DNA from: Lysobacterales bacterium
GTDB lineage: Bacteria > Pseudomonadota > Gammaproteobacteria > Xanthomonadales > Xanthomonadaceae
Length of the DNA stretch: 38,343 nt
Reading direction: 5' to 3'
Assembly (NCBI GenBank): GCA_017302035.1
Contig: JAFLEA010000023.1
Span: 1 to 38,343, forward strand
The notes beneath the pieces were generated by a model that was not told the origin of the DNA, did not search any database, and saw only the letters and a program-made list of their open reading frames with translations. This document shows, in pieces, positions 10,971 through 32,422 of the stretch. How positions within the stretch are numbered: position 1 is the first letter of the stretch; the number at the start of each line of letters is the position of its first letter. The position numbers and the translations under genes are program-made.

Positions 10971-10988
10971 CCTGCGCCTGATCCGGCG

Positions 10989-11028
10989 GGGCCCGTGTCC
11001 GGGAGCAGTCCGTCCCGGGCACGGGCCC
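10989..11028 (+). terminator. Strong 16-bp hairpin after the receptor gene
   Basis: GGGCCCGTGTCCGGGA (10989-11004) and TCCCGGGCACGGGCCC (11013-11028) pair over 16 bp with one mismatch around an 8-nt loop. No long T tract follows, so it may partly end transcription or protect the receptor mRNA, leaving lower expression of the GH30 gene 50 nt further on. Confidence 0.65.
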
Positions 11029-11078
11029 GTTCGCATGATGGAACCGTGCAGTCGCACGAAAGACCGAGGAGCACGCCA

Positions 11079-16349: not shown

Positions 16350-18142
16350 AGGTTCGCCCCCAGGCTCAGGTAGATCTGGACGACCGAATCGGGATCGTTG
16401 AGGCCGCGCGCGACGTCGATGCGCACGCCGCCGATCGGCGAGCGCCAGCGTGCGCCCAGGCCCACGCCGGTGCGCAGCCGGAAGTCGTTCTTGCCGTCGA
16501 AGGCGTCGCCGGTGTCGACGAACGCGGCCATGCCCCATGGCCCGGCATTGAAGTAGTGCTCGTACTCGGCCGAGGCGGTGACCACGTAGCGGCCGCCGAG
16601 GGCGAAATTGTCCGGCGGCGGCGTGCGCGGGCCGACTTCGCGCCAGGCGTAGCCGCGGATGCTGCGATCGCCGCCGGCGAAGAAGCGCAGGCTCGGCGGC
16701 ATCGCGACCAGGTTGCGGGTCCAGGTGGCGCCACCTTCGCCGCGCAGGATCAGCCGGTCGGCTTCACCCATGCCCTGGAACCAGGTGGCGCTACCCCAGC
16801 CCTGCACGAAGCTGGTGTCCGAGCCGGCGCCGTCGGCACCGCCGCGCAGGGCGACGCTGGCACTGAGCCCGTGGCGCGGGAACAGGCGGTTGTCCACGCC
16901 GATGTAGTTGCCGGTGACCTCGGGATAGAACAGGGTGGAGTAGCTGTACAGGCGCCCGCCGGTGGTCACGTCCATGTCGTAGCTCCAGCGCTCGCGCAGC
17001 GCGATCAGCGAGGCCACCGCGGTCCAGCGGTCGTTGAGCTCGCCGCTGCGGCTGGCCAGCAGCTTGACGTGGCGCATGTCGATGTAGTCGGTCTGCTCGT
17101 CGTAGGCGCTGGCGGCGACGGTGTACCAGCCGTCCAGCCAGGCGAACGCGGGCATCCGGTACTGGACCAGCAGGTTCTTGCGGTTCTGCGCGTAGTCCAG
17201 GTCGGTGACCAGCTTGTGTCCGCGGCTGTTGACGTAGCGCCGTTCCATGCCGAAGCGCACGCCCAGGCCGCTCTCGGTGCCATAGCTGAGACCGGCGCTG
17301 TAGACGGTGCGCTTGGCCAGCACCAGGTTGACGTCGACCGGTACCCGGAAGTCGTCGCTGGCGTCCTGCGGCCGCGGCTGGATGTCGATGGCGCTGAAGT
17401 AGTCGAGCCTGACCAGCGACTGCCGCAGCCGGTCGAGCTTGCCTTGGTGGAAGTAGCTGCCTTCCTCCCAGGTCACCAGCTTCTCCAGCAGGCCGGGACG
17501 GAAATAGTCCTGGTGGAACGTGGTCGGCCCCATGTCGTAGCGGAAGCCGCTGTCCCAGGCCAGGTCGATGTCGGCGGCGAAGTCGGCGCGGGTGACCCGC
17601 ACCTCGCGGCGCATGAAATCGGCGTCGAAGTAGCCGCGTTCGGCCAGGCGCCGGCTGATGCCGTCGCGGCTGGCGTCGTAGGTGGTGTGGTCGAACACCT
17701 CCCCCGGCGCCGGGCGGAAGGCCTTGATGTCGGCGACCAGGTACGGATCCTCGCCGCCGGGGCCGAGGATGGACACGTCGGATTCGCGCACCCGCACCGG
17801 TTCGCCCCTGTCGACGTGGACCACGACGGTGACGCGGTCGTCGACGCCGCGCGGCGAATCGACGGTGATGGTCGGCGAGTAGTAGCCGAACGGCTCCAGC
17901 GCCTGGCGCGCCTCGCGCTCGGCGTTGAACAGGAGGAACTCCAGGCGTGCCTCGCCTTGCTGCTCGCCCACCGCGGTGTTCACGCCCAGGGCCAGGCGCA
18001 CGTTGTTCTCCATCGCCGGGTGTGCTTCCAGGCCGCGGATTTCGACCCGGTCGATGGTGCCGCGGGCCTGGGCCCCGGGGATGGCTGCCAGCGCCGCCAG
18101 CAAGGCGATCGCACAGCGGAGGAAGGGGAGGGGCAGTGGCAT
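16346..18142 (-). CDS. tamA: TamA, Omp85-family outer-membrane barrel
   Basis: TamA is the outer-membrane half of the translocation and assembly module. This 598-residue copy has a signal peptide (PFLRCAIALLAALAAIPGAQA), three POTRA-like units (about residues 28-270, for instance IDRVEIRGLEAHP and YFDADFMRREV) and a 16-strand Omp85 barrel. The lid-loop signature is visible as DRSIRGYAWREVGPR at about residues 485-500. The last strand ends VVQIYLSLGANL, so the final residue is Leu, not the more usual Phe. The chosen ATG begins the signal peptide; no strong ribosome site precedes it. It overlaps tamB, and its promoter must lie in the 278-nt gap shared with the giant repeat-protein gene. Confidence 0.94.
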   Translation of the reverse strand: MPLPLPFLRCAIALLAALAAIPGAQARGTIDRVEIRGLEAHPAMENNVRLALGVNTAVGEQQGEARLEFLLFNAEREARQALEPFGYYSPTITVDSPRGVDDRVTVVVHVDRGEPVRVRESDVSILGPGGEDPYLVADIKAFRPAPGEVFDHTTYDASRDGISRRLAERGYFDADFMRREVRVTRADFAADIDLAWDSGFRYDMGPTTFHQDYFRPGLLEKLVTWEEGSYFHQGKLDRLRQSLVRLDYFSAIDIQPRPQDASDDFRVPVDVNLVLAKRTVYSAGLSYGTESGLGVRFGMERRYVNSRGHKLVTDLDYAQNRKNLLVQYRMPAFAWLDGWYTVAASAYDEQTDYIDMRHVKLLASRSGELNDRWTAVASLIALRERWSYDMDVTTGGRLYSYSTLFYPEVTGNYIGVDNRLFPRHGLSASVALRGGADGAGSDTSFVQGWGSATWFQGMGEADRLILRGEGGATWTRNLVAMPPSLRFFAGGDRSIRGYAWREVGPRTPPPDNFALGGRYVVTASAEYEHYFNAGPWGMAAFVDTGDAFDGKNDFRLRTGVGLGARWRSPIGGVRIDVARGLNDPDSVVQIYLSLGANL

Positions 18143-18420
18143 CCGCGGAGGATACCGGGAATGCCTCCGGCAGTGCCCTGTCGCCCACGGGCGACGCCGT
18201 CGCGGCGGGCGGCTTCCGCGCGAAGGTAGCAGCTGCAACCGGGGGTCGGGAGGGGAATATTGATATTTCCGTCACATTCTTGAACAATAGGCGGCTGCCG
18301 TGGGGCTTGATCCGTCCCTGGCAGTTCCGGAGGGCGCAAGCGCGCCCGATCCCGGCACTTCAAGCAAACGATTCCCGCCGGCCGTAGCCATCGCCGGCGG
18401 AGCGACAGGGGAAAACCAGC
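18143..18420. promoter_or_regulatory. Divergent control region and structured leader of the giant repeat-protein operon
   Basis: This gap separates tamA from the giant gene. The only AT-rich stretch (18255-18290) holds a rightward candidate promoter, TTGATA (18260-18265) and AACAAT (18283-18288) with 17 nt between, and likely the tamA promoter on the other strand. Downstream the leader contains two perfect hairpins: GGGCGC/GCGCCC (18332-18347, loop AAGC) and CCGCCGGC/GCCGGCGG (18375-18400, 10-nt loop). If the promoter is right, the 5' leader is about 125 nt long. I compared it by eye with the c-di-GMP-I riboswitch and do not find its conserved core. It may be an undescribed leader or only stable structure. 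Confidence 0.4.
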
Positions 18421-21400
18421 GTGAACCGAAAGGACGGGAAGCCGGCCATGGGCCGGCGTGGGACTGAATGTGCCACGGATACCGGGGCAGCCTGGCGGCG
18501 TTTCAGGGTCGCCAGTGCGCTCTGTGCGGCGTTGCTGTGGGCGCCGGCGGCGGCCGCGGCCGACCTGCTGATCAGCGACCTGTCCGACGGCATCTACGAC
18601 CCCTCGCCGGTCGGAGGCCAAGTCACCTATCACGTGTCGCTGGAGAACGGCGACGTCGACACCGCCACGGACGTGGTCGCGATCTTCGACCTGCCCGCCG
18701 GCGCGACCGCGGTGGCCCTGCCGGGGTTCTGCACCGCCGCCGCGACCAATCCGGTCCGCGTGCACTGCAATATCGGCACCCTGACGGGCGGCTCGCCGCG
18801 CGACTTCGACTTGACGATCGGCACCGCCGGCCTGACCCCGGGCGACGTGTACATCCATGGCGCCATCGGCTTCGCCGCGGGCCTGCCGGGCGCCGGCGAT
18901 GCGATCAGTGGCCTGGACGTCAGCACCCATCCCTTCTTCGACGGCGACTCGTCGCGCAACAACAACGTCAACAGCGAGCGCACCACGCTGCTGAACGCGG
19001 GCGACCTGCGCCTGGCCAAGACCGGTACCCCCGATCCGGTGATCGGCGGCGGCGAAGTCACCTACACCCTGACCGTCACCAACGACGGCCCGAATGCCTC
19101 CAGCGGCTTCAACGTGGTGGACACGCTGCCGGCCGGGGTCACCCTGGTACCCGGCAGCTTCAGCGGCTCCGGCTGGAGCTTCGTTCCCGGCACCATGACC
19201 GCCACCCATGCGGGCACGCTGGCCAACGGCGCCAGTTCCTCCTTCAGCTTCCGTGCCCGCGTCGGCGTGGGCAGCGGCAACGTGGTCAATGCCGCGGTAG
19301 TCAATGCCGGCAGCGCCGTGCCCGACCCGAATCCGGGCAACAACTCGGCCCAGGCCGTCACCTCGGTGACCCCGGGCGCCGACCTGGCCATCGAGAAGCG
19401 CGCCGACCCGACCCCCGCGGTGGCCGGTAGCCCCGTGACCTTCCATGTCCAGGTCCGCAACCTGGGCCCCAGCGCCGCCCAGAGCCCGAACTGGAGTGAC
19501 GTGCTGCCCACCGGCTTCCTGGTGACCGGCGGCACCCAGCCGAGCGGCTGGAACTGCACCACGTCGCCCGATTCCACCACCCGCAGCTGCGCCAATCCGG
19601 GCAGCCTGGGCGTCGGCGCGACCGCCGACTTCACGATCGAGGCCACGGTTCCCTCCAACGGTCCCAACAGCAGCGGCAGCGTGACCAACACGGTTGCGGT
19701 CGCTTCGGGTACGCCCGACCCGATCGCCGGCAACAACACCTTCAACAACACCTTCAACGTCCTGGCCGACGGCGCCGACCTGAGCCTGACCAAGCAGAAA
19801 ACGCCCACTCTGGTGACGGTGTGGCCGGGCACGGGCTCCGACACCGACAGCCGGATGACCTCCACGATCCGGGTGAGCAACAACGGCCCGCGCGCGGCGA
19901 TCGGCGGCGTGCAGGTCGTCGACGTGCTGGCCCTGGGCGAGGAATACCTCAGCGGCGGCAACGCGAACTGGAGTTGCTCGGTCGCCCCCGCCGCCTGGAG
20001 CGCGGCGGTCCAGCAGGTGGTCACCTGCGACCTGGCGGCTTCGCTCTATCCGCTGGGGGTGGGCACGACCGCGCCCAACCTGACCATCGTCACCCGTGCG
20101 CGCGCGTCCGGCGCCCTGACCAACCAGGCCTGTACCGGCGGTTCGGGTGGCTCGGTCCAGCCGCAGACCGGCGGCGTGGTCAACGAGGATCGCAATCCGG
20201 GCAACAACTGCGCCAGCGGCAACAACCGCACCACCGAAGATCGGGTCGACCTGCAGATCGAGAAGTGGACCAACGGCACGGCGTCCACCTCGGACAACAC
20301 CCTGGTCGTCGGCGCCAACAGCCTGACCTATACCTTGCGCGTCACCAACCTGGCGATCACCGACGCAGTGCCGGCCACCGGCATCGTGGTTGCCGACACG
20401 ATCCCGGGTTTCGTGGCCGCGGCCGGCGGCAATCCGGCCACCGGCGTGACCTGGGCGGTGCCGGCGGGCTGGACCTGCAGCCGGTCCGGCGCGAACGTGA
20501 CCTGCCGCTCCGGCGCCACGGCGCTGGCGCCGGGCGCTTCGGTCGACATCGTGCTCACCGTCGCCCGTCCGTTGTTCGACAGCGTCGGCCAGACCCTGGC
20601 GGCCAACAGCTGCGGCACCGGCAATCCCACCACCGGCGCGCGCTGCAACACCGCCACCGTCAGCGTGGACCCGGCCGTGGCCGGCTCGATCGGCGAGATC
20701 AACGGCGCCAACAACACCGCGCGCGACTGGGTCATCATCGAGCGCGAGGCCAACGTCACCACCACGGCCAAGGACATCACCACCGGCAACGTGGGCCGCG
20801 CCGGCGTCGACAGCAACTACGTGATGTCCTACATCAACCAGGGGCCCTCGGCGGTTCCCGGCGTAGTGTTCCAGGACACCTTCGTGATCCCGGCGGGCGA
20901 TGCCGGCTTCGTGCTGCGCTCGGCTACCCGGACCCCCGGCACGGTCAACTGCCCGGCCACCCCCGCGCCGGGCCTGGTCGCCACCGTCACTGCCGGCGGC
21001 ACGTCCTACTCCAATCCCACCGGCGGCGACCTGACCCTGACCATCGCCTGCCCGGCGATCAACCTGACCTACCGCCAGGCCGAAAGCCTGCAGGTCAGCA
21101 TTCGTCCGAACGTCAACTCAGGCAACACCGCCGGCGGCCGGGTCTTCACCAACGCGGCCAGCTTCTCCATCGCCGGTGGTGCGTCCGGAAGCGATGCCCA
21201 GGGTGGGTTCAACTTCAACACCAACACCGCCGACGACACCCGCAACGCCACCCTGACCTTCCTGGCGGGCGAAGCCGACTTGATCGTCAACAAGGTCGAC
21301 ACCGGTTTCACCGGGGGCGTGGACCCGCTGGGCTTCGACGCCACCAATCCGGCCGCGAACCTGATCACCTACCGCGTGTCGGTGCGCAATGAAGGCCCTT

Positions 21401-24400
21401 CGGTCGCGACCGGCGTGCAGATCGTCGACAGCTACCGCGCCCCGGCCGGGCGCCAGGTCGAATTCATCGGCATCGCCACCGGTCCGGCGACCGGTCCGGC
21501 GACCGCATTCGACCCGGCGGGTTGCAGTGTCGTGTCCGGCACCAATCCGTTCACCGGTTCGGGCTCGGAGATGACCGATCCGTCCGCGTTGACCGTGCGC
21601 TGCGATGTCGCGGGCAGCGGCTTCCCCGGGAGCAACGCCCTGGGCACGCTGGGCGTGGGATCCACCAGCTATGTCTTCATCCAGTATCGCTATCTGACTG
21701 CGCCGGGCCCCGGCGGCGACATCGTGCGCAACCATGCGCGGGCCGAACTGAACGAAACCGACCCGGCCCTGGCCAACAACGAGGCCGAGCAGTTCACCAC
21801 CATCCGCGCCCGCGCGGACATGGCGGTGGAAAAGTCGGTGTTCACCACCGCCCCGAACAGCGATCCGACCGTGGCCCTGCCGGCGACGCCGGCGACCTCG
21901 GTGTCGCTGATGCAGCCGTTCTACTACGTGGTCGAGGGCATCAACAGGGGGCCGGGGGCGAGCCTGTCGCGCGACCGCACCGGCAGCAGCCCGCTCGACG
22001 GCACCGGCACGGTGGTCACCGACACCTTGCCGCCCGGGCTCGAAGTCACCGGGCCGATCGGCTGGCAGAAGCGGGGCCCCGATCCGGGCGGCGGCGAAGT
22101 GCCCAACGGCGGCGGATCCTGCGCGCTCGCGGCCAACGTGGTGACCTGCACCATGGGCGACATGACCGTCACCGGCAGGTCGCGGATCATCATCCCCGTG
22201 CGCTGGGTCACCTGGCCCACCGGCGGTACTGCCACCAATGTCGCCCGCGTCACCACCGAGCAGGTCGACCCGGATCCGAACAACAACGAGGACGACGTGG
22301 TCATCAACGTGACCCGTTCGTCGCTGGCCGGCGTGGTCTACGAGGACCGTGACCGCAGCCCCGGCAATGGCGGTCGCCGCCAGCCGGGCGAACCCGGCAT
22401 CGCCGGCGTGACCGTCACCCTGGAAGGCATTGACGCCTACGGCAACTCGGTCAGCCTCACCACCACCACCGATGGCAACGGTGCCTACAGCTTCGGCGAC
22501 CTGGCTCCCGCCAACGCCGCCGGTTACACCATCACCCAGGGCCAGCCGGCCGGCTACATCGACAGTCCGTATGCGCCGCCGGTGGCGCCGGATGCGGATG
22601 CGCCGTCGCTGGGCGGCAGCTATGCCTCCGGCACCCGATACACCGGCGTGCCCGTGGGTGCCAACGACGCCGGCGTGCGCTACGACTTCCCGGAAGTCAG
22701 GAATCCGTCCCTGTCCGGCTACGTCTACGTCGACGCCAACTACAACAACGTCCGCGACCCGGGCGATGGCCCGATCGCGGGCGCCACGGTGGAACTGCTC
22801 AACGCGGCCGGCGCGGTGGTGATGAGCACCACCACCGATGCCAATGGCGCCTACAGCTTCACCGGCCTGGATCCGTTGCAGGTCTATACCCTGCGCCAAC
22901 CGCTGCCCGCCGGCGGTTACATCAACCGTCCGCTGGCGGTGAACCCGGGCCTGATCGGCGGCGCGGCCTGTGCCAGCGGCTGTGCAGCCGGCACCGGCGT
23001 GGGTGGCGATCCGGCCACCACCGACCGCATCAGCACCATCGACCTGGGCTCCGGCCAGGACGGCACCGAATTCAACTTCGGTGAATATGCCGTCACCACG
23101 ATCAGCGGCAGTGTCTACGTCGACCGCAACAACAACGGCCAGTTCGATGCGGGCGACGCCGGCACCCACTACTCGGCGCCCAACGGTGGCCTGACCGGCG
23201 TGACCGTGACCCTGGTCGGCGCAGGTCCGGACGGCATCTTCGGCAACGGCGACGACCCCGCGCCGGTGGTGGTCACCACCGATGCCAATGGCGTGTTCAA
23301 CTTCGCGGACGTGGTGATCGGCCAGAACTACCGCATCGACCAGACCCAGCCCGACGGCTTCGGCAACGGCCTGGAAAATCCGGGCAATTCGATCACGATC
23401 AACAACCTGCCGCCGGCCGGCTCGACCGGCAACAACTTCGGCGAAGTGCTCGGTTCGCTGGCGGGCTTCGTGTTCGAGGACTTCTCGTCCACCGCGGCCA
23501 ACAACAACAACGGCAGCTTCGATGCGGGCGAGAACCCGATCGGCAACGTCACCCTGACCCTCACCGGCACCGACCTGCGCGGCAACCCGGTCACGCGCAC
23601 GGTGCAGACCGCCGCCGACGGCAGCTACGCATTCGCCGACCTGATGCCGCCGCAGGCAGGCACCACCTACACCATCACCCAGACCCAGCCGGCCGGCTAC
23701 ATCGACGGCCGCCATACCCCCGGCAACGCGTCCACCCCGGGCAGCGCCAGCGCGCCCAACGTGATCGACGGCATCGGCATCACCGCCGGCGAGGCGGCCA
23801 CCGGCTACCTGTTCGGCGAACTGGCCAACGCCACGATCAGCGGCACCGTCTACCTGGACCGCAACGACAACGGCAACCAGGATCCGGGTGAACCGGGCTT
23901 GCCCGGCGTCACCATCACCATCGAGGGCGCAGGCCCGGACGGCATCTTCGGCAACGCCGACGATCCGGCACCGGTGGTCCTGACCACCGACGGCAACGGC
24001 CACTACAGCTACGACGGCGCGGTCACCGGGCAGGACTACCGCGTGGTCCAGACCCAGCCGCCGGGCCTGGCCGATGGTCAGGAGAACCCGTCCAACACGA
24101 TCACGATCGGCAACCTGCCGATGACCGGATCCAACGGCAACAACTTCGGCGAACTGGCCGCATCCATCGCCGGCAACGTCTGGCTGGATGCCAACAACAA
24201 CGGCGTCCGCGATCCGGGCGAGGACGGCATCGCCGGGGTGAGCATCAGCCTGCCCGCCGGGACCGTCGACGCGCTCGGCAATCCGGTCGCCAGCGTGTTG
24301 ACCGATGCCAACGGCGACTACCTCTTCGTCGACCTGCTGGCCGGCACCTACACGGTGACCCAGCAGGCCGCGCAGCCGGTGGTCGGCGGCGTGACCACGC

Positions 24401-27400
24401 TCAACGGCACCACCGTGGCCGGTACCGTCTCCGGCGTGCCCAGCGGCACCGCCAGCACCGTGGCCACCGTGCCCAGCGCGGTGTCGGGCATCGTGCTGCC
24501 CGCCGGGCGCGCGTCGATCGGCAACAATTTCGGCGAAACCTTGCCGGTGGCGGTATCCGGCCGCGTGTTCTTCGACGTCAACAACGACGGCGTGCAGTCC
24601 GGCCCCGGCGAGACCGGGATCGCCGGCGTGACCATCGAGTTGACCGGGGTGGACGACACCGGCGCCAGCGTGTCGTTGACCACCACCACCGATGCCAACG
24701 GCGACTTCAGCTTCGAAGGCCTGCGCCCGGGCACCTACACCCTGACCCAGCCGACCCAGCCGCCGGGCACCAGCAACGGCCAGACCATTCCGGGCAGCGC
24801 CGGCGGCACCGGCACGCCGATCACCACCGTGCCCAGCGCGATTTCCGGGATCGACCTGACCACCCCGGGCTCCCGTTCGATCGACAACCTGTTCGGCGAG
24901 ATCCCGATGAACAGCTCGATCAGCGGCCGGGTCTGGAACGACCTGGACAACGACGGCGTCATCGACCCGGGCGAGACCGGCATCGAGGGCGTGGTCATCC
25001 GCCTGACCGGCACCGATCCGGCCGGCAATCCGGTCAGCCGCGAAACGGTCACCGGTCCCGACGGTCGCTACACGTTCACCGAACTGCCGCCGGGCACCTA
25101 CGTCATCGTCCAGCCCGAGCAGCCGGCCGGCACTCTCAGCGGCATCACGGTGCCGGGCACCGGTGGCGGCACCGCCACCACGCCGTCGACCACACCGTCG
25201 ACCATCTCCGGCGTGGTCCTGGGCGTGGGCGAGGAAGCCAGCGCCAACAACTTCGGCGAAATCCCGGTGGGCCGCATCTCCGGGCGGGTGTACTACGACA
25301 ACAACAACAACGGCGTGGTCGATCCGGGCGAGGCGGGCATCGCCGGGGTAACGGTGGTGCTGACCGGCACCAACGACCTGGGCGAGGCGGTCAACGTCAC
25401 CGCCACCACCGATGCCGATGGCCGCTATCGCTTCGATGGCCTGCGTCCGGGCACCTATGCGGTGACCCAGCCGGTGCAGCCGCCGGAAACGACCAACGGC
25501 ATCACCAGCGCCGGCACCATCAACGGCAGCGTGGTCGGTATCGCCACCCCGGTGGACGTCGTTCCCTCGGCGATCAGCGCGATCGTGCTGCCCATCGGCG
25601 GCGAATCGATCGACAACAACTTCGGCGAGATCGGCGATTCGCCCGACGTGGTGGTGAGCAAGCGGGCCAACCCGGCCTTGTTCACGGTCAACAACCCGGC
25701 CACGTACACCATTTCCGTGCGCAACCGCGGCCAGCGCCAGACCGAAGGCCAGTACACCGTGCACGATCGGTTGCCTGCCGGGATCGTCCTGGCGGGCGTG
25801 CCGAGCGGCGACGGGTGGACCTGCTCGGGCCAGGCCGGTGAAACCCGTTTCAGCTGCAGCAGCAGCCGGGTGCTCGCCGCCGGTGCCGACGCCGCGCCGA
25901 TCGAGCTGCCGGTGAAGGTGTCCGCCGCGGCGGCCGCCACCGGGACGGTGCACAACGCCGTGTTGGTCGAGGGCGGTGGCGAAAATCCGTACCGTGCGCC
26001 GACGCCGGCCGAACGTGCCGCCTTCGAGGGCGACATCACCGGCCTGCCGGTGTGCGATCCGGCCATCACCCAGAACGCCTGCCGCCTGCCCACCCGGGTA
26101 CAGCTGTCCGCCGCCCTGAGCGGCACGGTATGGCTGGAACTGGGCGGCACCGGGGACCATTGGCTGGATTCGGCCGACCAGCGCAAGTCCGGCTGGATCG
26201 TCGAGCTGGTCGATCCGGTCACCGGCCAGGTGGTGCGCACCACCACCACCGGCAACGACGGCCGCTATCGCTTCGACGACGTCGTTCCGGGCGTGCGTTG
26301 GCAGGTGCGCTTCCGCGATCCGCAGAGCGGCGCCATCTGGGCTTGGCCGGTGTCCGGTGAAACCCCGGCGGGCCCGCCGGCGCCGTGCGATGCCGACGCG
26401 GCCATCGCCAACGGCACCGCCAGCAGTTGCCGCACCCAGTCCGGTGGCTTCACCGCGCTGGAAGTGGTCCTGCGCCCGGGCAGCGAACTGCCCGAGCAGA
26501 GCCTGCCGCTGGATCCGGGCGGCGTGGTCTACGACTCGATCACCCGTACTCCGGTTCCGGGTTCGATCGTGACCCTGACCCCGGTCGGCGTGTGCGCCGG
26601 CTACGACCCGGCCACCAGCCTGCTCAACGTCGGCCAGGGCGGTTACCAGATCCAGGGCGACGCGGTGTCGATGACGGTCGGCAGCGACGGCTACTACCAG
26701 TTCCAGTTCGCCACCGGTGCGCCGGCGCGCTGCGAGTTCCGCCTGACCGTGACCCCGCCGCCCAGTTACACCTTCGTCTCCACCACGATCCCGGCCAACG
26801 ACGGCACCCTGTCGCCGCCGGGTGGCGGTGATGGCCGCTACCCGGTGCTGCCGGGCGCGACCGCGCCGACCGCGCCGGTGGGCGATGGCACCCGCTATTA
26901 CCTGACCGTAATCGGTGGCTCGGACGTGGCCCGGATCGTCTACAACCACATCCCGCTGGATCCGCGGCAGCCGCCGGGGCTGAGCATCAGCAAGACCGGC
27001 AACCGGCAGATCGTGGAGATCGGCGACACGCTCGAGTACACGATCACCGTGCGCCAGACCGCCGGCGCGCCGCTCGCCCAGGTCACCGTGCTCGATCGCC
27101 TGCCGCGCGGCTTCACCTACGTCGCCGGCACCGCCCGCGTGGATGGGCTGGGGATCGCCGATCCGGACGGCCAGCCGGGTCCGCGCCTGGCCTTCGACAT
27201 CGGCGCCATCGGCAGCGGCGCCCAGCGCGTGCTGACCTACCGGGTCCGGGTCGGCGTGGGTGCCGACCAGGGCGACGGCGTCAATCGCGCCCAGGCCCAC
27301 GGCTGCGCGTTCCAGCAGGGTTGCGTCGATGCCGGCATGCAGCCGTACCCCGGCAGCGTCCCGTCCAACCAGGCCCAGTACCGCGTGCGGGTCACCGGCG

Positions 27401-27930
27401 GCGTGTTCACCAGCGAAGGCTGCGTGCTCGGCAAGGTGTTCGTGGATTGCAACCGCAACCACGTGCAGGATCCCGAGGAGCTGGGCATCCCGGGCGTGCG
27501 CATGTACTTCGAGGACGGCACCTGGGTGGTGTCCGACTCGGAGGGCAAGTACAGCTACTGCGGCCTGCCGCCGCAGAGCCACACGCTGAAGGTGGATGCG
27601 TCCACGCTGCCGGTCGGCTCGCGCCTGACCACCAGCAGCAACCGCAACCTCGGCGACGCGGACAGCCTGTTCATCGACCTCAAGAACGGCGAGCTGCACC
27701 GCGCCGACTTCGTCGAGGGCAGTTGCTCCAACCCGGTGATCGAGCAGGTCAAGGCCCGCCGCACCCAGGGCGAGGTGCGCGCGCCGGAGACCGAGACCGG
27801 CCAGCCTGCGCTGCGCTTCGAGAGCAAGCCGCTGCGCAGCCCGCAGCAAGGCACGGATTCGGCCAACCAGAGACCGATCGTGGATCCCAGACCCACCCGA
27901 CCCACCGACGGACGGGAGGTGCAGCCATGA
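18421..27930 (+). CDS. Giant secreted repeat protein: DUF11 array, SdrD_B/Cna-B-like array, conserved C-terminal module
   Basis: This 3,169-residue protein has a Sec signal peptide (hydrophobic RVASALCAALLWAPAAAA, cut near residue 47). Then come eight DUF11-type Ig-like domains (about 48-1300; openings such as ADLAIEKRADPTPAVAG, closings PDPNPGNN). Nine SdrD_B/Cna-B-like units follow (about 1301-2408), most with a calcium-loop pattern D-x-N-x-N-G-x-x-D-x-G-E and closing NNFGE. A ninth DUF11 (about 2409), further Cna-B-like units (about 2564 and 2702), a tenth DUF11 (about 2853) and a cysteine-bearing C-terminal unit (about 2997-3110) complete it, with a polar disordered tail. There is no LPXTG, autotransporter barrel, type I glycine-rich signal or type IX tail. 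The start is GTG with AGGGGA upstream; an ATG ten codons in is possible. Its stop overlaps the next gene by four bases. It probably forms an extended surface fibre; ligand and export route are unknown. Confidence 0.9.
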   Translation: MNRKDGKPAMGRRGTECATDTGAAWRRFRVASALCAALLWAPAAAAADLLISDLSDGIYDPSPVGGQVTYHVSLENGDVDTATDVVAIFDLPAGATAVALPGFCTAAATNPVRVHCNIGTLTGGSPRDFDLTIGTAGLTPGDVYIHGAIGFAAGLPGAGDAISGLDVSTHPFFDGDSSRNNNVNSERTTLLNAGDLRLAKTGTPDPVIGGGEVTYTLTVTNDGPNASSGFNVVDTLPAGVTLVPGSFSGSGWSFVPGTMTATHAGTLANGASSSFSFRARVGVGSGNVVNAAVVNAGSAVPDPNPGNNSAQAVTSVTPGADLAIEKRADPTPAVAGSPVTFHVQVRNLGPSAAQSPNWSDVLPTGFLVTGGTQPSGWNCTTSPDSTTRSCANPGSLGVGATADFTIEATVPSNGPNSSGSVTNTVAVASGTPDPIAGNNTFNNTFNVLADGADLSLTKQKTPTLVTVWPGTGSDTDSRMTSTIRVSNNGPRAAIGGVQVVDVLALGEEYLSGGNANWSCSVAPAAWSAAVQQVVTCDLAASLYPLGVGTTAPNLTIVTRARASGALTNQACTGGSGGSVQPQTGGVVNEDRNPGNNCASGNNRTTEDRVDLQIEKWTNGTASTSDNTLVVGANSLTYTLRVTNLAITDAVPATGIVVADTIPGFVAAAGGNPATGVTWAVPAGWTCSRSGANVTCRSGATALAPGASVDIVLTVARPLFDSVGQTLAANSCGTGNPTTGARCNTATVSVDPAVAGSIGEINGANNTARDWVIIEREANVTTTAKDITTGNVGRAGVDSNYVMSYINQGPSAVPGVVFQDTFVIPAGDAGFVLRSATRTPGTVNCPATPAPGLVATVTAGGTSYSNPTGGDLTLTIACPAINLTYRQAESLQVSIRPNVNSGNTAGGRVFTNAASFSIAGGASGSDAQGGFNFNTNTADDTRNATLTFLAGEADLIVNKVDTGFTGGVDPLGFDATNPAANLITYRVSVRNEGPSVATGVQIVDSYRAPAGRQVEFIGIATGPATGPATAFDPAGCSVVSGTNPFTGSGSEMTDPSALTVRCDVAGSGFPGSNALGTLGVGSTSYVFIQYRYLTAPGPGGDIVRNHARAELNETDPALANNEAEQFTTIRARADMAVEKSVFTTAPNSDPTVALPATPATSVSLMQPFYYVVEGINRGPGASLSRDRTGSSPLDGTGTVVTDTLPPGLEVTGPIGWQKRGPDPGGGEVPNGGGSCALAANVVTCTMGDMTVTGRSRIIIPVRWVTWPTGGTATNVARVTTEQVDPDPNNNEDDVVINVTRSSLAGVVYEDRDRSPGNGGRRQPGEPGIAGVTVTLEGIDAYGNSVSLTTTTDGNGAYSFGDLAPANAAGYTITQGQPAGYIDSPYAPPVAPDADAPSLGGSYASGTRYTGVPVGANDAGVRYDFPEVRNPSLSGYVYVDANYNNVRDPGDGPIAGATVELLNAAGAVVMSTTTDANGAYSFTGLDPLQVYTLRQPLPAGGYINRPLAVNPGLIGGAACASGCAAGTGVGGDPATTDRISTIDLGSGQDGTEFNFGEYAVTTISGSVYVDRNNNGQFDAGDAGTHYSAPNGGLTGVTVTLVGAGPDGIFGNGDDPAPVVVTTDANGVFNFADVVIGQNYRIDQTQPDGFGNGLENPGNSITINNLPPAGSTGNNFGEVLGSLAGFVFEDFSSTAANNNNGSFDAGENPIGNVTLTLTGTDLRGNPVTRTVQTAADGSYAFADLMPPQAGTTYTITQTQPAGYIDGRHTPGNASTPGSASAPNVIDGIGITAGEAATGYLFGELANATISGTVYLDRNDNGNQDPGEPGLPGVTITIEGAGPDGIFGNADDPAPVVLTTDGNGHYSYDGAVTGQDYRVVQTQPPGLADGQENPSNTITIGNLPMTGSNGNNFGELAASIAGNVWLDANNNGVRDPGEDGIAGVSISLPAGTVDALGNPVASVLTDANGDYLFVDLLAGTYTVTQQAAQPVVGGVTTLNGTTVAGTVSGVPSGTASTVATVPSAVSGIVLPAGRASIGNNFGETLPVAVSGRVFFDVNNDGVQSGPGETGIAGVTIELTGVDDTGASVSLTTTTDANGDFSFEGLRPGTYTLTQPTQPPGTSNGQTIPGSAGGTGTPITTVPSAISGIDLTTPGSRSIDNLFGEIPMNSSISGRVWNDLDNDGVIDPGETGIEGVVIRLTGTDPAGNPVSRETVTGPDGRYTFTELPPGTYVIVQPEQPAGTLSGITVPGTGGGTATTPSTTPSTISGVVLGVGEEASANNFGEIPVGRISGRVYYDNNNNGVVDPGEAGIAGVTVVLTGTNDLGEAVNVTATTDADGRYRFDGLRPGTYAVTQPVQPPETTNGITSAGTINGSVVGIATPVDVVPSAISAIVLPIGGESIDNNFGEIGDSPDVVVSKRANPALFTVNNPATYTISVRNRGQRQTEGQYTVHDRLPAGIVLAGVPSGDGWTCSGQAGETRFSCSSSRVLAAGADAAPIELPVKVSAAAAATGTVHNAVLVEGGGENPYRAPTPAERAAFEGDITGLPVCDPAITQNACRLPTRVQLSAALSGTVWLELGGTGDHWLDSADQRKSGWIVELVDPVTGQVVRTTTTGNDGRYRFDDVVPGVRWQVRFRDPQSGAIWAWPVSGETPAGPPAPCDADAAIANGTASSCRTQSGGFTALEVVLRPGSELPEQSLPLDPGGVVYDSITRTPVPGSIVTLTPVGVCAGYDPATSLLNVGQGGYQIQGDAVSMTVGSDGYYQFQFATGAPARCEFRLTVTPPPSYTFVSTTIPANDGTLSPPGGGDGRYPVLPGATAPTAPVGDGTRYYLTVIGGSDVARIVYNHIPLDPRQPPGLSISKTGNRQIVEIGDTLEYTITVRQTAGAPLAQVTVLDRLPRGFTYVAGTARVDGLGIADPDGQPGPRLAFDIGAIGSGAQRVLTYRVRVGVGADQGDGVNRAQAHGCAFQQGCVDAGMQPYPGSVPSNQAQYRVRVTGGVFTSEGCVLGKVFVDCNRNHVQDPEELGIPGVRMYFEDGTWVVSDSEGKYSYCGLPPQSHTLKVDASTLPVGSRLTTSSNRNLGDADSLFIDLKNGELHRADFVEGSCSNPVIEQVKARRTQGEVRAPETETGQPALRFESKPLRSPQQGTDSANQRPIVDPRPTRPTDGREVQP
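18562..22320 (+). repeat. Array of eight DUF11-type domains in the giant protein
   Basis: Units start near 18562, 19008, 19378, 19774, 20247, 20749, 21274 and 21817, each about 120-190 residues. Most open with ADL/VDL followed by a lysine-containing strand, carry a V-x-N-x-GP strand and V-x-D-x-LP, and end with PDPN-x-x-NN. They are diverged in sequence, so this part looks old rather than recently expanded. Confidence 0.85.
22321..25644 (+). repeat. Array of nine SdrD_B/Cna-B-like units in the giant protein
   Basis: Units start near 22321, 22710, 23101, 23455, 23836, 24166, 24553, 24919 and 25276, each about 110-130 residues. The common plan is ISG-x-V-aromatic, a D-x-N-x-N-G loop, DPGE, G-I-x-GV, a strand, T-T-D-A-N-G-x-Y-x-F, T-x-T-Q-x-Q-P and NNFGE. 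Several units share near-identical segments at the DNA level, for instance around 23218-23280 and 23929-23991, a sign of recent duplication or gene conversion. Confidence 0.88.
27409..27930 (+). other. Conserved C-terminal module and tail of the giant protein
   Basis: The last unit (CVLGKVFVDCNRN, then QDPEELGIPGVRMYF, SDSEGKYSYCGLPP, SSNRNLGDADSLF and GELHRADFVEGSCSN) is a Cna-B-like fold with several cysteines. It is more tightly patterned than the internal repeats. About 60 polar residues rich in Pro, Arg and Gln follow to the stop. Its place next to the barrel gene makes it the best candidate for a docking or export signal. That role is inference. Confidence 0.55.
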
Positions 27931-30900
27931 GCCGGTTCTCCTTCCGCCGTGGTGCCCCGAGGCTGAGCCTGCTCGCATGCGCCCTGGCCGTCGCCGCGCC
28001 GGCGCTGGCCCAGGACCCCTCCGGCAGCCAGCGTTTCACCTCCGTGCTCGGCACCGCCGATGCGTTGTACCCGCAGTCGCCGGCGACCACCAACGCCGGG
28101 CCGCGCGTGGTCGACCGTCGTTCGGGCAGCGTCGACTACAGCGCCAATCGCAGCGTCGACCGGATCCTGGTCGAGCTCGACCGCGACGGGGTACCGGCCG
28201 ATGGCCAGTCGCCGGTGCACGTGCGGGTGCAACTGCTCGGTGCCGACGGCCTGCCGCTGGCCGGCCAGGTGTTCGCCACCATCGAGCACAGCGGTGGCCG
28301 CATCCGCCTGCCGGGTTCGCGTACCGACGAGTTCGGGCCCGGTGCCAGCGATGCCGACAAGGCCACCCCGGGCGTGCAGCTCGAGGCTGCCGACGGCGTG
28401 GCCGAATTCGACCTGATCGCCCCGCATGAACCGCAGGACGTGTTCCTGCGGATCACTGCAGGCGACCAGACCGCAGAAGGCGTGGTCGGTTTCCTGCCGG
28501 AGATGCGCGAGCTGCTGGCCACCGGCCTGATCGAGGGCATCGTCAACTTCAACCGCAAGGCCAACCGCGAGCTGATCGCGCCGGTCCAGCACGGCGATGC
28601 GTTCGAGCGCGAGATCCGGCGCTGGGAGAAGCAGTTCAACGACGGCAAGGCCAACGCCGCCGCGCGCACCGCGTTCTTCGTCAAGGGCCGGATCAAGGGC
28701 GAGTACCTGTTGACCGCGGCCTACGACTCGGACAAGGAAGTGCGCTCGCGCCTGCTGCGCGACGTGCGCCCGGAGGAGTTCTATCCCGTCTACGGCGACT
28801 CCTCGTTGCACGGTTTCGACGCACGCTCCTCCGGACGCCTGTACGTGCGCCTGGACAGCGGGCGCAGCTACCTGCTCTACGGCGACTTCCAGACCGGCGA
28901 GACCCTGGCCACGAGGACCGGCGTCGGCGGCAGCGGGCCGATCCCGCAGCGCAGCCTGGGCGCCTACAGCCGCACGGCCACCGGCCTGGGCTGGCATTTC
29001 GAGAGCGGGCGGGTGCGCGGCAACGTGTTCGCCACCGAGGACTCGCTGCGCCAGGTGATCGAGGAGTTCGCCAGCCAGGGCAGCGGTCCCTACGCGCTGC
29101 GCAACAGCGCGGTGCTGGAAGGCAGCGAACGGGTCGAGGTGGTCGTGCGCGACCGCTACCAGCCGTCGCGGATCGTCGAGGTGCGGCCGCTGGCGCGCCT
29201 GGTGGACTACAGCTTCGAACCGTTCTCCGGCCGGATCCTGCTCAACCAGTTCCTGCCGGCGTTCGATGCCAACCTCAACCCGGTGACGCTGCGCATCACC
29301 TACGAGCTCGACCAGGGCACCGAGAAGTTCTGGACCTACGGCGCCGATGCGCAGTGGAAGCTGACCGACCGCTTGGAGATCGGCGGCGCGGTGGTGGACG
29401 ACCGCAATCCGTTCGCCGAGTTCCGCATGGCCAGCGCCAACCTCGGCTACCGCTTTGGCGAGAAGACCTACCTGGCCGCCGAGTTCGCGCGTACCCGCAG
29501 CGAGGTCAACACCAACAGCATCAACCAGTACGCCACCCCGGGCCTGCAAGACCTGACCGGGGACGTGGACGGCGACGCCTGGCGGGTCGAGTTCGGCCAC
29601 GAGGGCAAGGTGCTGGACGCGCGGGTGTTCGCCGCACGTACCGATCCTGCGTTCAACAACGTGGCCTCGCCGCTGTTCGGCGGCCGCGGCGAGTACAGTG
29701 CGCGCCTGACCTGGAAGCTGGGCGAGCGATTCCAGCCGTACCTGGAGGGATTGCGCAGCGAAGACCGCAATCCGGATGGCGGCAAGCGCGATGCGGCCGG
29801 TGCCGGCCTGCGCATCGGCGCTACCGACCGGCTCACGGTCGACCTGGGGCTGCGCAGCATCCGCGAGACGGTGGGCGCCTATTCGCCCTGGACCGCGGGC
29901 ATGCCGTTCGGCAACGCCGGTGGCCTGACCGGCGGCTTCGCCACCGGTGCCGGTGGCGGCGCGCTCGGCTTCGGCCAGCAACCGCTCGATCCGTTGACCG
30001 GCCTGCCGGTGATCGGCAGCAGCGGCGCGCAGGGCGAGTGGACCAGTTCGCTGCCGATCGGCACCGAGCTGGAGTCGGAAACCGCGCGCATCGGCCTGGG
30101 CTATCGCGCCAGCGAGACGTTCACCGTCGGTGGCGAGGTCGAACAAGCCTTCGGCGGCGAGGACCGCAACCGCCTGGCGTTGGGCGTGGACTGGCAAGTG
30201 TTCGAGCGCAGCCGCCTGTATGGCCGCTATGAGAAGCAGACCGGCCTGACCAGCGCCTACGGCATCACCGAGGCCGGCCGCGAGGCCGACGCGTTCGTGT
30301 TCGGCGTCGACAGCAACTACCTCAAGGACACCCAGGTGTTCAGCGAGTACCGCATGCGCGACGCCGTGGCCGGTCGCGACCTGCAGGCCGCCTCCGGCAT
30401 CCGCCAGAACTGGGACCTGGGCCCGGGCTTGCGGATGAGCGCTTCGGCCGAGCACGTCAAGGTCTATGACGGCGCCACCGGCGATGCCACCGGCCTGGCC
30501 TTCGGCGTTGACTACACCGGCAACCCGTTGTGGCGGGGCAGTGCGCGGGTGGAGCACCGGATCTCGGGCGACGTGGCCGGCACCGACCTCGACGAGTCGT
30601 TCGACACGACCCTGGTGCAGTTGCTGGCGGCGCGCAAGATCAACCGCGACTGGACCGTGCTCGCGCGCAACTACCTGCTGGCCACCGACTACCGCGCCCG
30701 CGGCGACGTGCTCCAGGACCGCTTCCAGCTCGGCCTGGCCTACCGCGACACCGACCGCAACCGGATCAACGCGCTCGCCCGCTACGAGTACAAGCTCGAG
30801 AGCGACGAGAGCGGCCTGACCCTGGACCGCGGCCAGGTGGTGGCGGGCACCAGCCAGGACATCCGCAGCCGCGCCCACATCGTCTCGATGCATGCCGACT

Positions 30901-31322
30901 GGCATCCGTCGCGGCCGTGGTGGCTCACCGGCCGGGTGGCGGGCAAGTGGCAGGACGACCGTTTTGCCTACGCCGACGGAAGCCGCGTGGACGACAGCTT
31001 CGACGCGGTGCTGCTGTCCGGGCGGATGGTCTACGACTTCACCGAGAACTGGGACGTCGGGGCGATGGCCTCGACCTTCCGCGGCCAGCACGGCGCCAAC
31101 CAGTACGCATACGGTGTCGAACTGGGCCGCCTGCTGCGGCAGAACCTGTGGCTGTCGGCCGGATACAACTTCTCCGGATTCGACGGCGACCGCGACTTGT
31201 CCGGCTACGAGTACACCCAGCAGGGCATCTACCTGCGCCTGCGCTTCAAGTTCGACGAAGACCTGTTCCGCAGGGACGAACCCCGCTATCGCGAACCCGT
31301 GCGCTACGGAGCGACCAACTAA
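27927..31322 (+). CDS. Large predicted outer-membrane beta-barrel with N-terminal Ig-like domain
   Basis: This 1,131-residue protein begins with a signal peptide (LSLLACALAVAAPALAQ, cut near residue 29). Residues about 70-200 form an Ig-like/invasin-like domain (ILVELDRDGVPADGQSPVHV, VFLRITAGDQTAEG). A conserved region follows with FVKGRIKGEYLLTAAYDSD and FYPVYGDSSLHGFDARSSG, then GSERVEVVVRDRY and ILLNQFLPAFD. From about residue 500 on, alternating strands with aromatic ends (for example WRVEFGHEG, LYGRYEKQTG, NALARYEYKLES) suggest a many-stranded barrel. The final strand IYLRLRFKF is followed by a charged 21-residue tail, unlike most BAM substrates, which stop at the last strand. The ATG overlaps the giant gene's stop by four bases behind GGGAGGT. 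It is a candidate exporter or anchor for the giant protein. I do not recognise a named family. Confidence 0.85.
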   Translation: MSRFSFRRGAPRLSLLACALAVAAPALAQDPSGSQRFTSVLGTADALYPQSPATTNAGPRVVDRRSGSVDYSANRSVDRILVELDRDGVPADGQSPVHVRVQLLGADGLPLAGQVFATIEHSGGRIRLPGSRTDEFGPGASDADKATPGVQLEAADGVAEFDLIAPHEPQDVFLRITAGDQTAEGVVGFLPEMRELLATGLIEGIVNFNRKANRELIAPVQHGDAFEREIRRWEKQFNDGKANAAARTAFFVKGRIKGEYLLTAAYDSDKEVRSRLLRDVRPEEFYPVYGDSSLHGFDARSSGRLYVRLDSGRSYLLYGDFQTGETLATRTGVGGSGPIPQRSLGAYSRTATGLGWHFESGRVRGNVFATEDSLRQVIEEFASQGSGPYALRNSAVLEGSERVEVVVRDRYQPSRIVEVRPLARLVDYSFEPFSGRILLNQFLPAFDANLNPVTLRITYELDQGTEKFWTYGADAQWKLTDRLEIGGAVVDDRNPFAEFRMASANLGYRFGEKTYLAAEFARTRSEVNTNSINQYATPGLQDLTGDVDGDAWRVEFGHEGKVLDARVFAARTDPAFNNVASPLFGGRGEYSARLTWKLGERFQPYLEGLRSEDRNPDGGKRDAAGAGLRIGATDRLTVDLGLRSIRETVGAYSPWTAGMPFGNAGGLTGGFATGAGGGALGFGQQPLDPLTGLPVIGSSGAQGEWTSSLPIGTELESETARIGLGYRASETFTVGGEVEQAFGGEDRNRLALGVDWQVFERSRLYGRYEKQTGLTSAYGITEAGREADAFVFGVDSNYLKDTQVFSEYRMRDAVAGRDLQAASGIRQNWDLGPGLRMSASAEHVKVYDGATGDATGLAFGVDYTGNPLWRGSARVEHRISGDVAGTDLDESFDTTLVQLLAARKINRDWTVLARNYLLATDYRARGDVLQDRFQLGLAYRDTDRNRINALARYEYKLESDESGLTLDRGQVVAGTSQDIRSRAHIVSMHADWHPSRPWWLTGRVAGKWQDDRFAYADGSRVDDSFDAVLLSGRMVYDFTENWDVGAMASTFRGQHGANQYAYGVELGRLLRQNLWLSAGYNFSGFDGDRDLSGYEYTQQGIYLRLRFKFDEDLFRRDEPRYREPVRYGATN

Positions 31323-32347
31323 TGAAGACCAACACCACGATGCCCATCCGTTTCCCCGGCGCCCGGCGCGCGCTCGCCCTCGCCCTGCTGGCCTCGCTTC
31401 CCTTGGCCGTGCAGGCCCAGGACGCGGTGCGCCTGGCTCCGCAGCAGGCCCGGATCACCGATGAGGCGATCCATGCCGACCTGCAGAGCTACGAGGCCAC
31501 CCAGGGCCGGATCAAGGGGCTCAACGACGCCGGCCGCCCGGTCCGCGACTACCACCTGTCCAAGGCCCAGTGCTGGCTGGACGTGTCCTTCCACGAATAC
31601 ACCCGCAACGACCGCAGCGACTTCCCCCAGGAAGCGCTGGACGAGTCGGTGAAGTTGATCGTGGGCATGGAGAACCGGGTTTCGCCGCTGCCGACCGATA
31701 CCCCGCTGGTCAACGGTGCCGTCCGCCTGCGCGAGGACCTGTGGGCGCGTCTGGCGGCATTGCACGGCACCCCCGGCTTCACCTGCGCGCAGCAGGCGGT
31801 GGCCTGCGGCGAGGTCGAGCTGGTGCACGCCGGCAACGAGTTCAACCAGCAGCAATGGCGCCACGCCAAGCCCTACATCCAGATCGCCGAGGACCTGGTG
31901 AACGACGCCGAGGCATTGGCCCGCCAGTGCGGCGCGGCCCCGGCCGCCGCCGTACCTGTCGCCGGTCCGCCGCTGGTGGCCAACGTCCTGTTCGAGTTCG
32001 ACCGCGACAAGCGCGGCGATATCCGCGGAGGATCGTTGCAGGAACTCGAGCGGGCACTGGCGCAGATCAGCGCCGAGGGACTGACCGTGGAGCGCGTTGA
32101 ACTGGTCGGCCATGCCGACCGGATGCAGGGCCGCGGCGCGGACTACAACAAGGAATTGTCTGCGCGCCGGGCCCGGACCGTGCGCGAACTGCTGGTCGGC
32201 CGCGGCATCGATCCGTCGCTGATCGAGTACAGCTACCGCGGCGACCTGGAGCAGGTGGAGTACTGCAAGGGCGTGACCCCGCGCGCGGCCCTGCTCGAAT
32301 GCCTGCTGCCGAACCGCCGGGTGGAAACGCGCTTCATCGTGCGCTGA
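31322..32347 (+). CDS. OmpA-family peptidoglycan-binding protein of the giant-protein operon
   Basis: This 341-residue protein has a signal peptide (ALALALLASLPLAVQAQ), an uncharacterised N-terminal region of about 185 residues (with YHLSKAQCWLDVSFHEYTRN) and a C-terminal OmpA domain (about 217-341). The peptidoglycan-binding pattern is present: GHADRMQGRGADYNKELSARRARTV, where Asp266 and the arginine helix correspond to the diaminopimelate-binding residues of OmpA/Pal. Six cysteines remain in the mature part, which could form disulfides in the periplasm. There is no lipobox, so it is probably held by peptidoglycan and by partner proteins. Its ATG overlaps the previous stop by one base (TAATG), and a perfect hairpin follows. 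It likely tethers the barrel/giant-protein assembly to the cell wall. Confidence 0.9.
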   Translation: MKTNTTMPIRFPGARRALALALLASLPLAVQAQDAVRLAPQQARITDEAIHADLQSYEATQGRIKGLNDAGRPVRDYHLSKAQCWLDVSFHEYTRNDRSDFPQEALDESVKLIVGMENRVSPLPTDTPLVNGAVRLREDLWARLAALHGTPGFTCAQQAVACGEVELVHAGNEFNQQQWRHAKPYIQIAEDLVNDAEALARQCGAAPAAAVPVAGPPLVANVLFEFDRDKRGDIRGGSLQELERALAQISAEGLTVERVELVGHADRMQGRGADYNKELSARRARTVRELLVGRGIDPSLIEYSYRGDLEQVEYCKGVTPRAALLECLLPNRRVETRFIVR

Positions 32348-32359
32348 CCCGCGCCGGGG

Positions 32360-32390
32360 CCGAACCCGTGCCTGCCCGGCACGGGTTCGG
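32360..32390. terminator. Perfect 13-bp hairpin ending the giant-protein operon and glyS
   Basis: CCGAACCCGTGCC (32360-32372) and GGCACGGGTTCGG (32378-32390) pair perfectly around a 5-nt loop in the 75-nt gap between converging genes. It is probably a two-way terminator. Confidence 0.75.
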
Positions 32391-32422
32391 TCCAGACTCC
32401 CGGATCCACGGTCCGCAGCGGC

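Follow-up and report, generated by a model that had tools for sequence, protein, structure and literature searches.

A giant DUF11/SdrD_B stalk protein encoded with a predicted wide outer-membrane barrel and an OmpA-domain partner in a Lysobacterales bacterium

The window analysed here is a stretch of 38,343 nucleotides from a Lysobacterales bacterium (assembly GCA_017302035.1, contig JAFLEA010000023.1, positions 1 to 38,343), whose genome comprises 2.9 Mb in 125 contigs. It carries three genes on the + strand that encode, in order, a giant stalk protein, an outer-membrane barrel protein and an OmpA-domain protein. Comparison across genomes gives good support to a functional partnership of the stalk and the barrel, and it is rather probable that the set forms one envelope complex, in which the stalk is held by a wide barrel, perhaps after export through it, and is linked to the wall by the OmpA protein. 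The operon is best read as the split version of a family that is widespread and, it appears, undescribed. The system is wider than the special three-gene operon of the original prediction, as the same parts make up one polypeptide in many relatives, and it probably amounts to a mode of giant surface protein display that has been overlooked. How DUF11/SdrD_B stalks of thousands of residues reach the surface of Gram-negative bacteria is a question that this stalk poses in particular, since it shows none of the recognised signals for transport or anchoring. The barrel, joined to such stalks in one chain or encoded next to them, points to the missing partner and opens the route to experimental tests. 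The features of the operon are as follows.

18421-27930, + strand: giant stalk gene, GTG start, 3,169 amino acids (aa), 9 DUF11 and 11 SdrD_B stretches, signal-peptide-like start (judged by eye)
27388-27930, + strand: C-terminal end of the stalk (SdrD_B module and tail), its most conserved part
27927-31322, + strand: outer-membrane barrel gene, 1,131 aa
28116-28553, + strand: immunoglobulin (Ig)-like region at the N-terminus of the barrel protein, residues 64-209, boundaries approximate
28650-31253, + strand: barrel domain, about residues 242-1109, about 40 predicted strands
31224-31253, + strand: last-strand motif GIYLRLRFKF of the barrel, conserved in the consensus sequence
31322-32347, + strand: OmpA-domain partner gene, 341 aa
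31439-31936, + strand: N-domain of the OmpA partner
about 32039-32269, + strand: OmpA domain of the OmpA partner
32357-32393, + strand: strong hairpin 3' of the operon, -35.6 kcal/mol, z -4.2

Co-occurrence, gene order and fusion of the three parts

The barrel, the terminal module of the stalk and the N-domain of the OmpA partner were searched separately in the same 149 genomes of the bacterial family, and the resulting table was counted by hand. The barrel is found in 68 of these genomes at E ≤ 0.001 and is close in 27, the limit for a close barrel (>250 bits) having been chosen afterwards. All 26 genomes with the terminal module at E ≤ 1e-30 lie within the 27 close-barrel genomes, and the sole close barrel without the module (G135) is cut at a contig end. 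At E ≤ 1e-10 the module is found in 33 genomes, all of which are among the 68 when distant barrels are counted. Giant proteins without a barrel had been named beforehand as the finding that would speak against a dedicated partner; the opposite was found, since the barrel accompanies the module in 26 of 26 and 33 of 33 genomes at the two thresholds, a result that concerns giants with this terminal module and not DUF11 giants in general, with other C-termini. Twenty-four of the 149 genomes, again all within the 27, have the N-domain of the OmpA partner, and the three close-barrel genomes that lack it encode fused proteins, one of which has its own OmpA domain. In one genome (G105), close barrel, module and OmpA partner are each present in two copies. 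In the window's own genus the barrel is present in two of the six sampled genomes, so that the set is accessory. Beyond the family, the barrel profile matches 51 of 369 genomes of the class and 53 of 398 genomes of the phylum (E ≤ 1e-10 for the latter), and the 13 phylum genomes with the terminal module (E ≤ 1e-15) are all among these 53.

Gene order was compared in 79 loci from named records, the best of 568 confirmed relatives, which include members of the Lysobacteraceae, Burkholderiales, Rhodocyclaceae and Nevskiaceae. The 79 loci were found via the barrel alone, at least one genome is represented twice (L099/L100), and two loci (L130 and L150) were assigned by hand. The closest named barrel relatives among them come from Pseudoxanthomonas, with that of P. 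kaohsiungensis being 88% identical. The stalk module, a term that in this tally denotes the C-terminal module (some loci, namely L099, L126 and L132, have a short or broken stalk frame), lies immediately upstream of the barrel in 71 of the 79 loci, and the remaining eight comprise two fusions, two loci with the module behind OmpA, both from Lysobacter antibioticus, and four that are cut at a contig end. OmpA adjoins the barrel in 76 loci; the other three are two cut loci and L148. With the module directly upstream in so many loci, the arrangement is not due to chance. L150 and L152, both from Lysobacter antibioticus, have the order barrel, OmpA, stalk, and the positions of the matches give it for G034 as well, therefore the partnership is independent of the usual order. 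The barrel gene or the stalk frame is broken at L130, L058/L132, L258 and L259, by mutation or assembly error.

Within the family, the stalk and the barrel form one protein in L047, L048, L093 (Stenotrophomonas humi) and L051/L153 (Lysobacter selenitireducens), and these Lysobacter and Stenotrophomonas fusions are 3,747-4,258 aa long and have a separate OmpA gene. DUF11-type domains and the barrel also share a single frame in L062-L065, and the distant split barrels of L068-L076 are preceded in 9 of 9 loci by a long protein with weak stalk matches. Among the 49 class genomes with a barrel match that lie outside the family, all of which were examined, the module and the barrel lie in one intact frame in 28 (L202, L234-L253, L277-L283) and in neighbouring genes in 14 (L262-L268, L271-L276, L284), with one broken-frame version of each arrangement (L259 fused, L258 neighbouring). 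A further locus, L261, has a DUF11-type protein 1.7 kb upstream of the barrel, and the stalk was unseen in four genomes (L257, L260, L269, L270), three of which are cut at a contig end. Where a genome holds at least two barrels (G644, G272, G574 and others), one or two of them were examined. Twenty loci taken from 19 of the 53 phylum genomes divide into 17 fused and 3 that are not.

Further relatives are encoded on plasmids. In Acinetobacter haemolyticus a fused protein is followed by an OmpA gene, and the 53-kb plasmid pSG53 of Sulfitobacter guttiformis (L256) carries an 18.6-kb DUF11 gene (6,195 aa) and then a barrel annotated as a TonB-dependent receptor, while a weaker barrel match is found on a plasmid of Synechococcus sp. 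NIES-970 (Cyanobacteriota). At the two extremes of length, the short fused relatives have only few stalk domains, and one barrel match (G644:C2, about 461473-462696, partly in L251) is part of an 11,777-aa open frame.

In a tree built for 80 barrels, five changes between the fused and the split state are required, four of which are forced by well-supported branches. It was built from 80 chosen rows, without the later class genomes, and the label fused or split depends on the module being in the same frame. One fused clade (Lysobacter and Stenotrophomonas) is nested among split barrels, which indicates that joining happened again. That the two pieces have been joined and separated repeatedly is hard to explain unless their products work together. 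Co-occurrence, gene order and natural fusions thereby lend strong support to the earlier proposal that the barrel and the OmpA protein are dedicated partners of the giant protein.

The stalk, the barrel and the OmpA partner

The giant protein has Pfam SdrD_B matches in 11 stretches and DUF11 matches in 9. Tandem stalk domains in a long, secreted-looking protein are a trait of DUF11/SdrD_B fibrillar adhesin stalks, which the giant protein shares, its signal peptide being judged by eye. No RTX, autotransporter, type IX secretion system (T9SS) tail or sortase-signal family is among the listed Pfam and NCBIfam matches at E ≤ 1, in line with the stated absence of type I, V, IX and sortase signals. 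Between the window and 48 complete split giants, which range in length from 2,384 to 3,260 aa, residues 3001-3100 (the terminal module) are 86% identical and residues 3101-3169 (the tail) 72% identical, compared with 19-61% for the remaining hundreds of the stalk. The module and tail contain four cysteines (residues 3001, 3010, 3047 and 3102), of which the second and the fourth are both absent from the fused clade (L047, L048, L051/L153, L093), a pattern that would fit a disulfide between them. With a regular expression for isopeptide triads, 3 of the 6 candidate DUF11 domains matched at every one of the three positions, and the expression was set aside as too crude.

The barrel protein matches no Pfam or NCBIfam family above cut-off. 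The annotation of its relatives varies between hypothetical protein, DUF11 protein and TonB-dependent receptor, and no relatives of it were found in viral contigs. An AlphaFold2 model of the mature protein, made with 63 sequences, shows an Ig-like N-terminal region followed by 41 strands of at least 7 residues (36 of at least 9), and a second AlphaFold model, that of a natural fusion, has 38 and 32 strands at the same lengths; these counts are taken from the strand lists of the models, some short strands of which perhaps lie outside the barrel, and do not establish a single closed barrel. The models thus suggest, with moderate confidence, a very wide barrel of about 40 strands, which, if the count holds, would be among the largest single-chain barrels. 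Foldseek relates both models to barrels of many kinds, including SprA, SlpA, Mtr and LptD, and therefore points to a large barrel with no closer assignment. The Ig-like N-terminus named in the original prediction is upheld, but weakly: the barrel profile finds an invasin Ig domain among the PDB sequences at E 0.009, and one relative matches Invasin_D3 at E 0.002, which is under the Pfam cut-off. The last strand carries a conserved motif, GxYLRLRFKF, which is like the signal read by BamA.

The OmpA partner scores 38.8 bits on PF00691 against a cut-off of 27.2, and so has the trait of an OmpA-type wall anchor. The domain lies on a separate gene in the window, and its position varies among the relatives, in all of which its matches are above the Pfam cut-off. 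It is C-terminal in L061, where stalk, barrel and OmpA form one protein of 2,532 aa, it stands between the stalk domains and the barrel in L199, L238, L244 and L249, and it is found at the N-terminus of the separate barrel proteins of L204, L266, L268 and L272, though not of L263. Eight fused proteins and four of the five further ones sent to Pfam were chosen for an OmpA hint or for their architecture, therefore no frequencies can be derived from them. OmpA domains thus occur on either side of the barrel, and if they attach to the wall in the usual OmpA manner, both barrel ends would face the periplasm.

A possible envelope complex and its alternatives

In the arrangement that fits these data best, the three genes would encode one envelope complex. 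The giant protein would be a long surface stalk held by its conserved C-terminal end, with the SdrD_B module and the tail docked onto the wide barrel or inside it, the N-terminal side of the barrel would face the periplasm, and the OmpA partner, by analogy with other OmpA domains, would tie the complex to peptidoglycan. Length and variability suggest that the distal stalk is outside, and the 11,777-aa frame with its barrel seems hard to fit into the periplasm. With the distal stalk outside and its C-terminal end at a periplasm-facing barrel N-terminus, the chain would have to pass the outer membrane, for which the barrel is the simplest path. The barrel may accordingly be the exit of the stalk in the manner of an autotransporter, acting in trans in the window and in cis where stalk and barrel are one chain; transport of this kind is a guess, albeit a good hypothesis. 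At the level of sequence, the arrangement draws on gene order, co-occurrence, repeated fusion and splitting, the conservation of the stalk C-terminus and the OmpA domains placed N-terminal of the barrel in several relatives. A broader proposal is more tentative and may well prove wrong, namely that an unnamed outer-membrane route exists in which barrels of about 40 strands export and hold giant Ig-like stalks, perhaps prefolded and locked by isopeptide bonds, with the barrel as a C-terminal domain or a separate partner and an OmpA wall anchor in any of the chains. It would extend across the Pseudomonadota, with weaker matches in a cyanobacterium.

Several points weigh against the stalk, barrel and OmpA complex, which is deduced from sequence comparison and predicted structures. 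Both barrel models are of moderate confidence (mean predicted local distance difference test score 68 and predicted TM-score 0.61 for the mature protein, 65 and 0.66 for the natural fusion), and their Foldseek TM-scores are low, at 0.10-0.34 among the 50 matches listed per model. In the model of the natural fusion the stalk tail is disordered and docking is unseen, which makes it uninformative on the contact. Pfam and NCBIfam recognise no adhesive domain at the N-terminus of the stalk. Furthermore, at L148 the 4.2 kb behind the barrel contain no OmpA gene, and at L257 the 3.7 kb in front of it are without a stalk match. In the fused chains that contain OmpA, at least the C-terminal side of the stalk is probably periplasmic.

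These points leave room for other readings. It is unlikely that the barrel only anchors the stalk and that the outer membrane is crossed in some other way, for example by type II secretion, even though nothing in the data demonstrates transport and the stalk begins like a Sec substrate and shows none of the known signals for transport. Export in the folded state would agree with the isopeptide bonds that DUF11 domains can carry (PMC12617251); however, in the fused relatives the stalk would have to exit while joined to the barrel, and no secretion genes were found to travel with the locus, where neighbours beyond the three genes were covered in the window and, elsewhere, for the tam genes. A periplasmic stalk, serving as a long spacer or wall-associated rod between the barrel and, through OmpA, the peptidoglycan, with the barrel as a pore or receptor, is less likely still. 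The OmpA domain between stalk and barrel in four fused relatives and the few stalk domains of the short ones speak for such a spacer, whereas thousands of Ig-like residues, the length variation of the split giants, the 11,777-aa frame and the 6,195-aa neighbouring gene fit better outside, and in PMC9210967 and PMC12617251 DUF11 and SdrD_B build the stalks of surface proteins. It is very improbable that the barrel is an ordinary porin or nutrient receptor in a shared operon with an unrelated surface protein: several relatives are publicly annotated as TonB-dependent receptors, but the barrel has no match to a Plug domain at E ≤ 1, and its co-occurrence with the stalk is near-perfect and their fusion repeated.

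Known systems and the genomic surroundings

Three known arrangements of passenger and barrel invite comparison. In type Va secretion the passenger lies N-terminal of its own barrel, which belongs to PF03797 and has about 12 strands. Type Vb pairs a TpsB barrel with POTRA domains with a TpsA protein that has a secretion domain, and in inverse autotransporters (intimin/invasin) the barrel is N-terminal and the Ig passenger C-terminal. The present set resembles types Va and Vb in having the passenger N-terminal of the barrel in one chain, or passenger and barrel in neighbouring genes, and differs in a barrel that is about 2-3 times larger by predicted strands, in a barrel gene that follows the stalk gene and in the OmpA partner. 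By analogy it may work like an autotransporter or a two-partner system, yet it falls outside both in the two comparisons that could be run: PF03797 is absent at E ≤ 1 and the models show about 40 strands, and no Autotransporter, POTRA or TPS family matches the stalk or barrel proteins at E ≤ 1. The set also departs from the inverse autotransporters, as those fused relatives that were examined carry the barrel C-terminal of the stalk.

Larger barrels and other OmpA proteins offer partial likenesses. SprA, the type IX translocon, is also a very large barrel and serves as an exit for giant surface proteins; it is the best Foldseek match of the second model (E 1.9e-9), and its TM-scores over both models are only 0.10-0.20. 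The barrel profile has no match to SprA among the PDB sequences at E ≤ 10, and the stalk is without a T9SS tail. SlpA of Deinococcus, another Foldseek match, is a large barrel tied to the wall, but it shows no sequence match and is not known to have a stalk partner. TpgA is similar as an OmpA protein encoded together with a surface adhesin, in its case a trimeric autotransporter and hence another type of adhesin; the OmpA partner scores 74 bits on the TpgA model, far below its cut-off of 350 bits.

Stalk-rich adhesins have been surveyed (PMC9210967), and DUF11 has been renamed CLIPPER in a study that demonstrated the isopeptide bond in an adhesin of Acinetobacter with a reported OmpA-like anchoring domain (PMC12617251). 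This fibrillar adhesin, from Acinetobacter silvestris, comes close to the present system in its DUF11 stalk, its Gram-negative envelope and its OmpA-type anchor; in contrast, OmpA is given there as the anchor, and the word barrel is absent from the main text of PMC12617251. The searched text of a paper on the type XI secretion system gave many counts of "DUF11", which are mostly DUF1194. No description of the barrel family or of the stalk, barrel and OmpA family was found in the open-licence text of PMC.

Within the window, the overlaps between the three genes are confirmed, with the four bases ATGA (27927-27930) shared by stalk and barrel and a single A at 31322 shared by barrel and OmpA, as are product sizes of 3,169, 1,131 and 341 aa. 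The N-termini of all three resemble Sec signal peptides when judged by eye. The strong hairpin said to bound the operon is present at 32357-32393, with no T run behind it. The leader (18272-18420), on the other hand, folds no better than shuffled sequences (z -0.64) and contains no Rfam family or tRNA, and so gives no sign of a special leader structure. To the left of the stalk gene, a divergent pair of tamB-like and tamA-like (Omp85, POTRA) genes occupies 12552-18238 on the - strand. The pair was considered for membership in the system, was kept only in two other close genomes (one at L039/L108, one at L134), and was left out because L040-L056 and similar loci with room upstream of the stalk gene show none, many of the 79 loci having too little room there for this check. 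The genes glyS and glyQ lie to the right of the operon on the opposite strand. Farther to the left, at 8229-12503 on the + strand, a receptor with a TonB plug domain stands beside a glycoside hydrolase family 30 gene, perhaps as a sugar-uptake pair.

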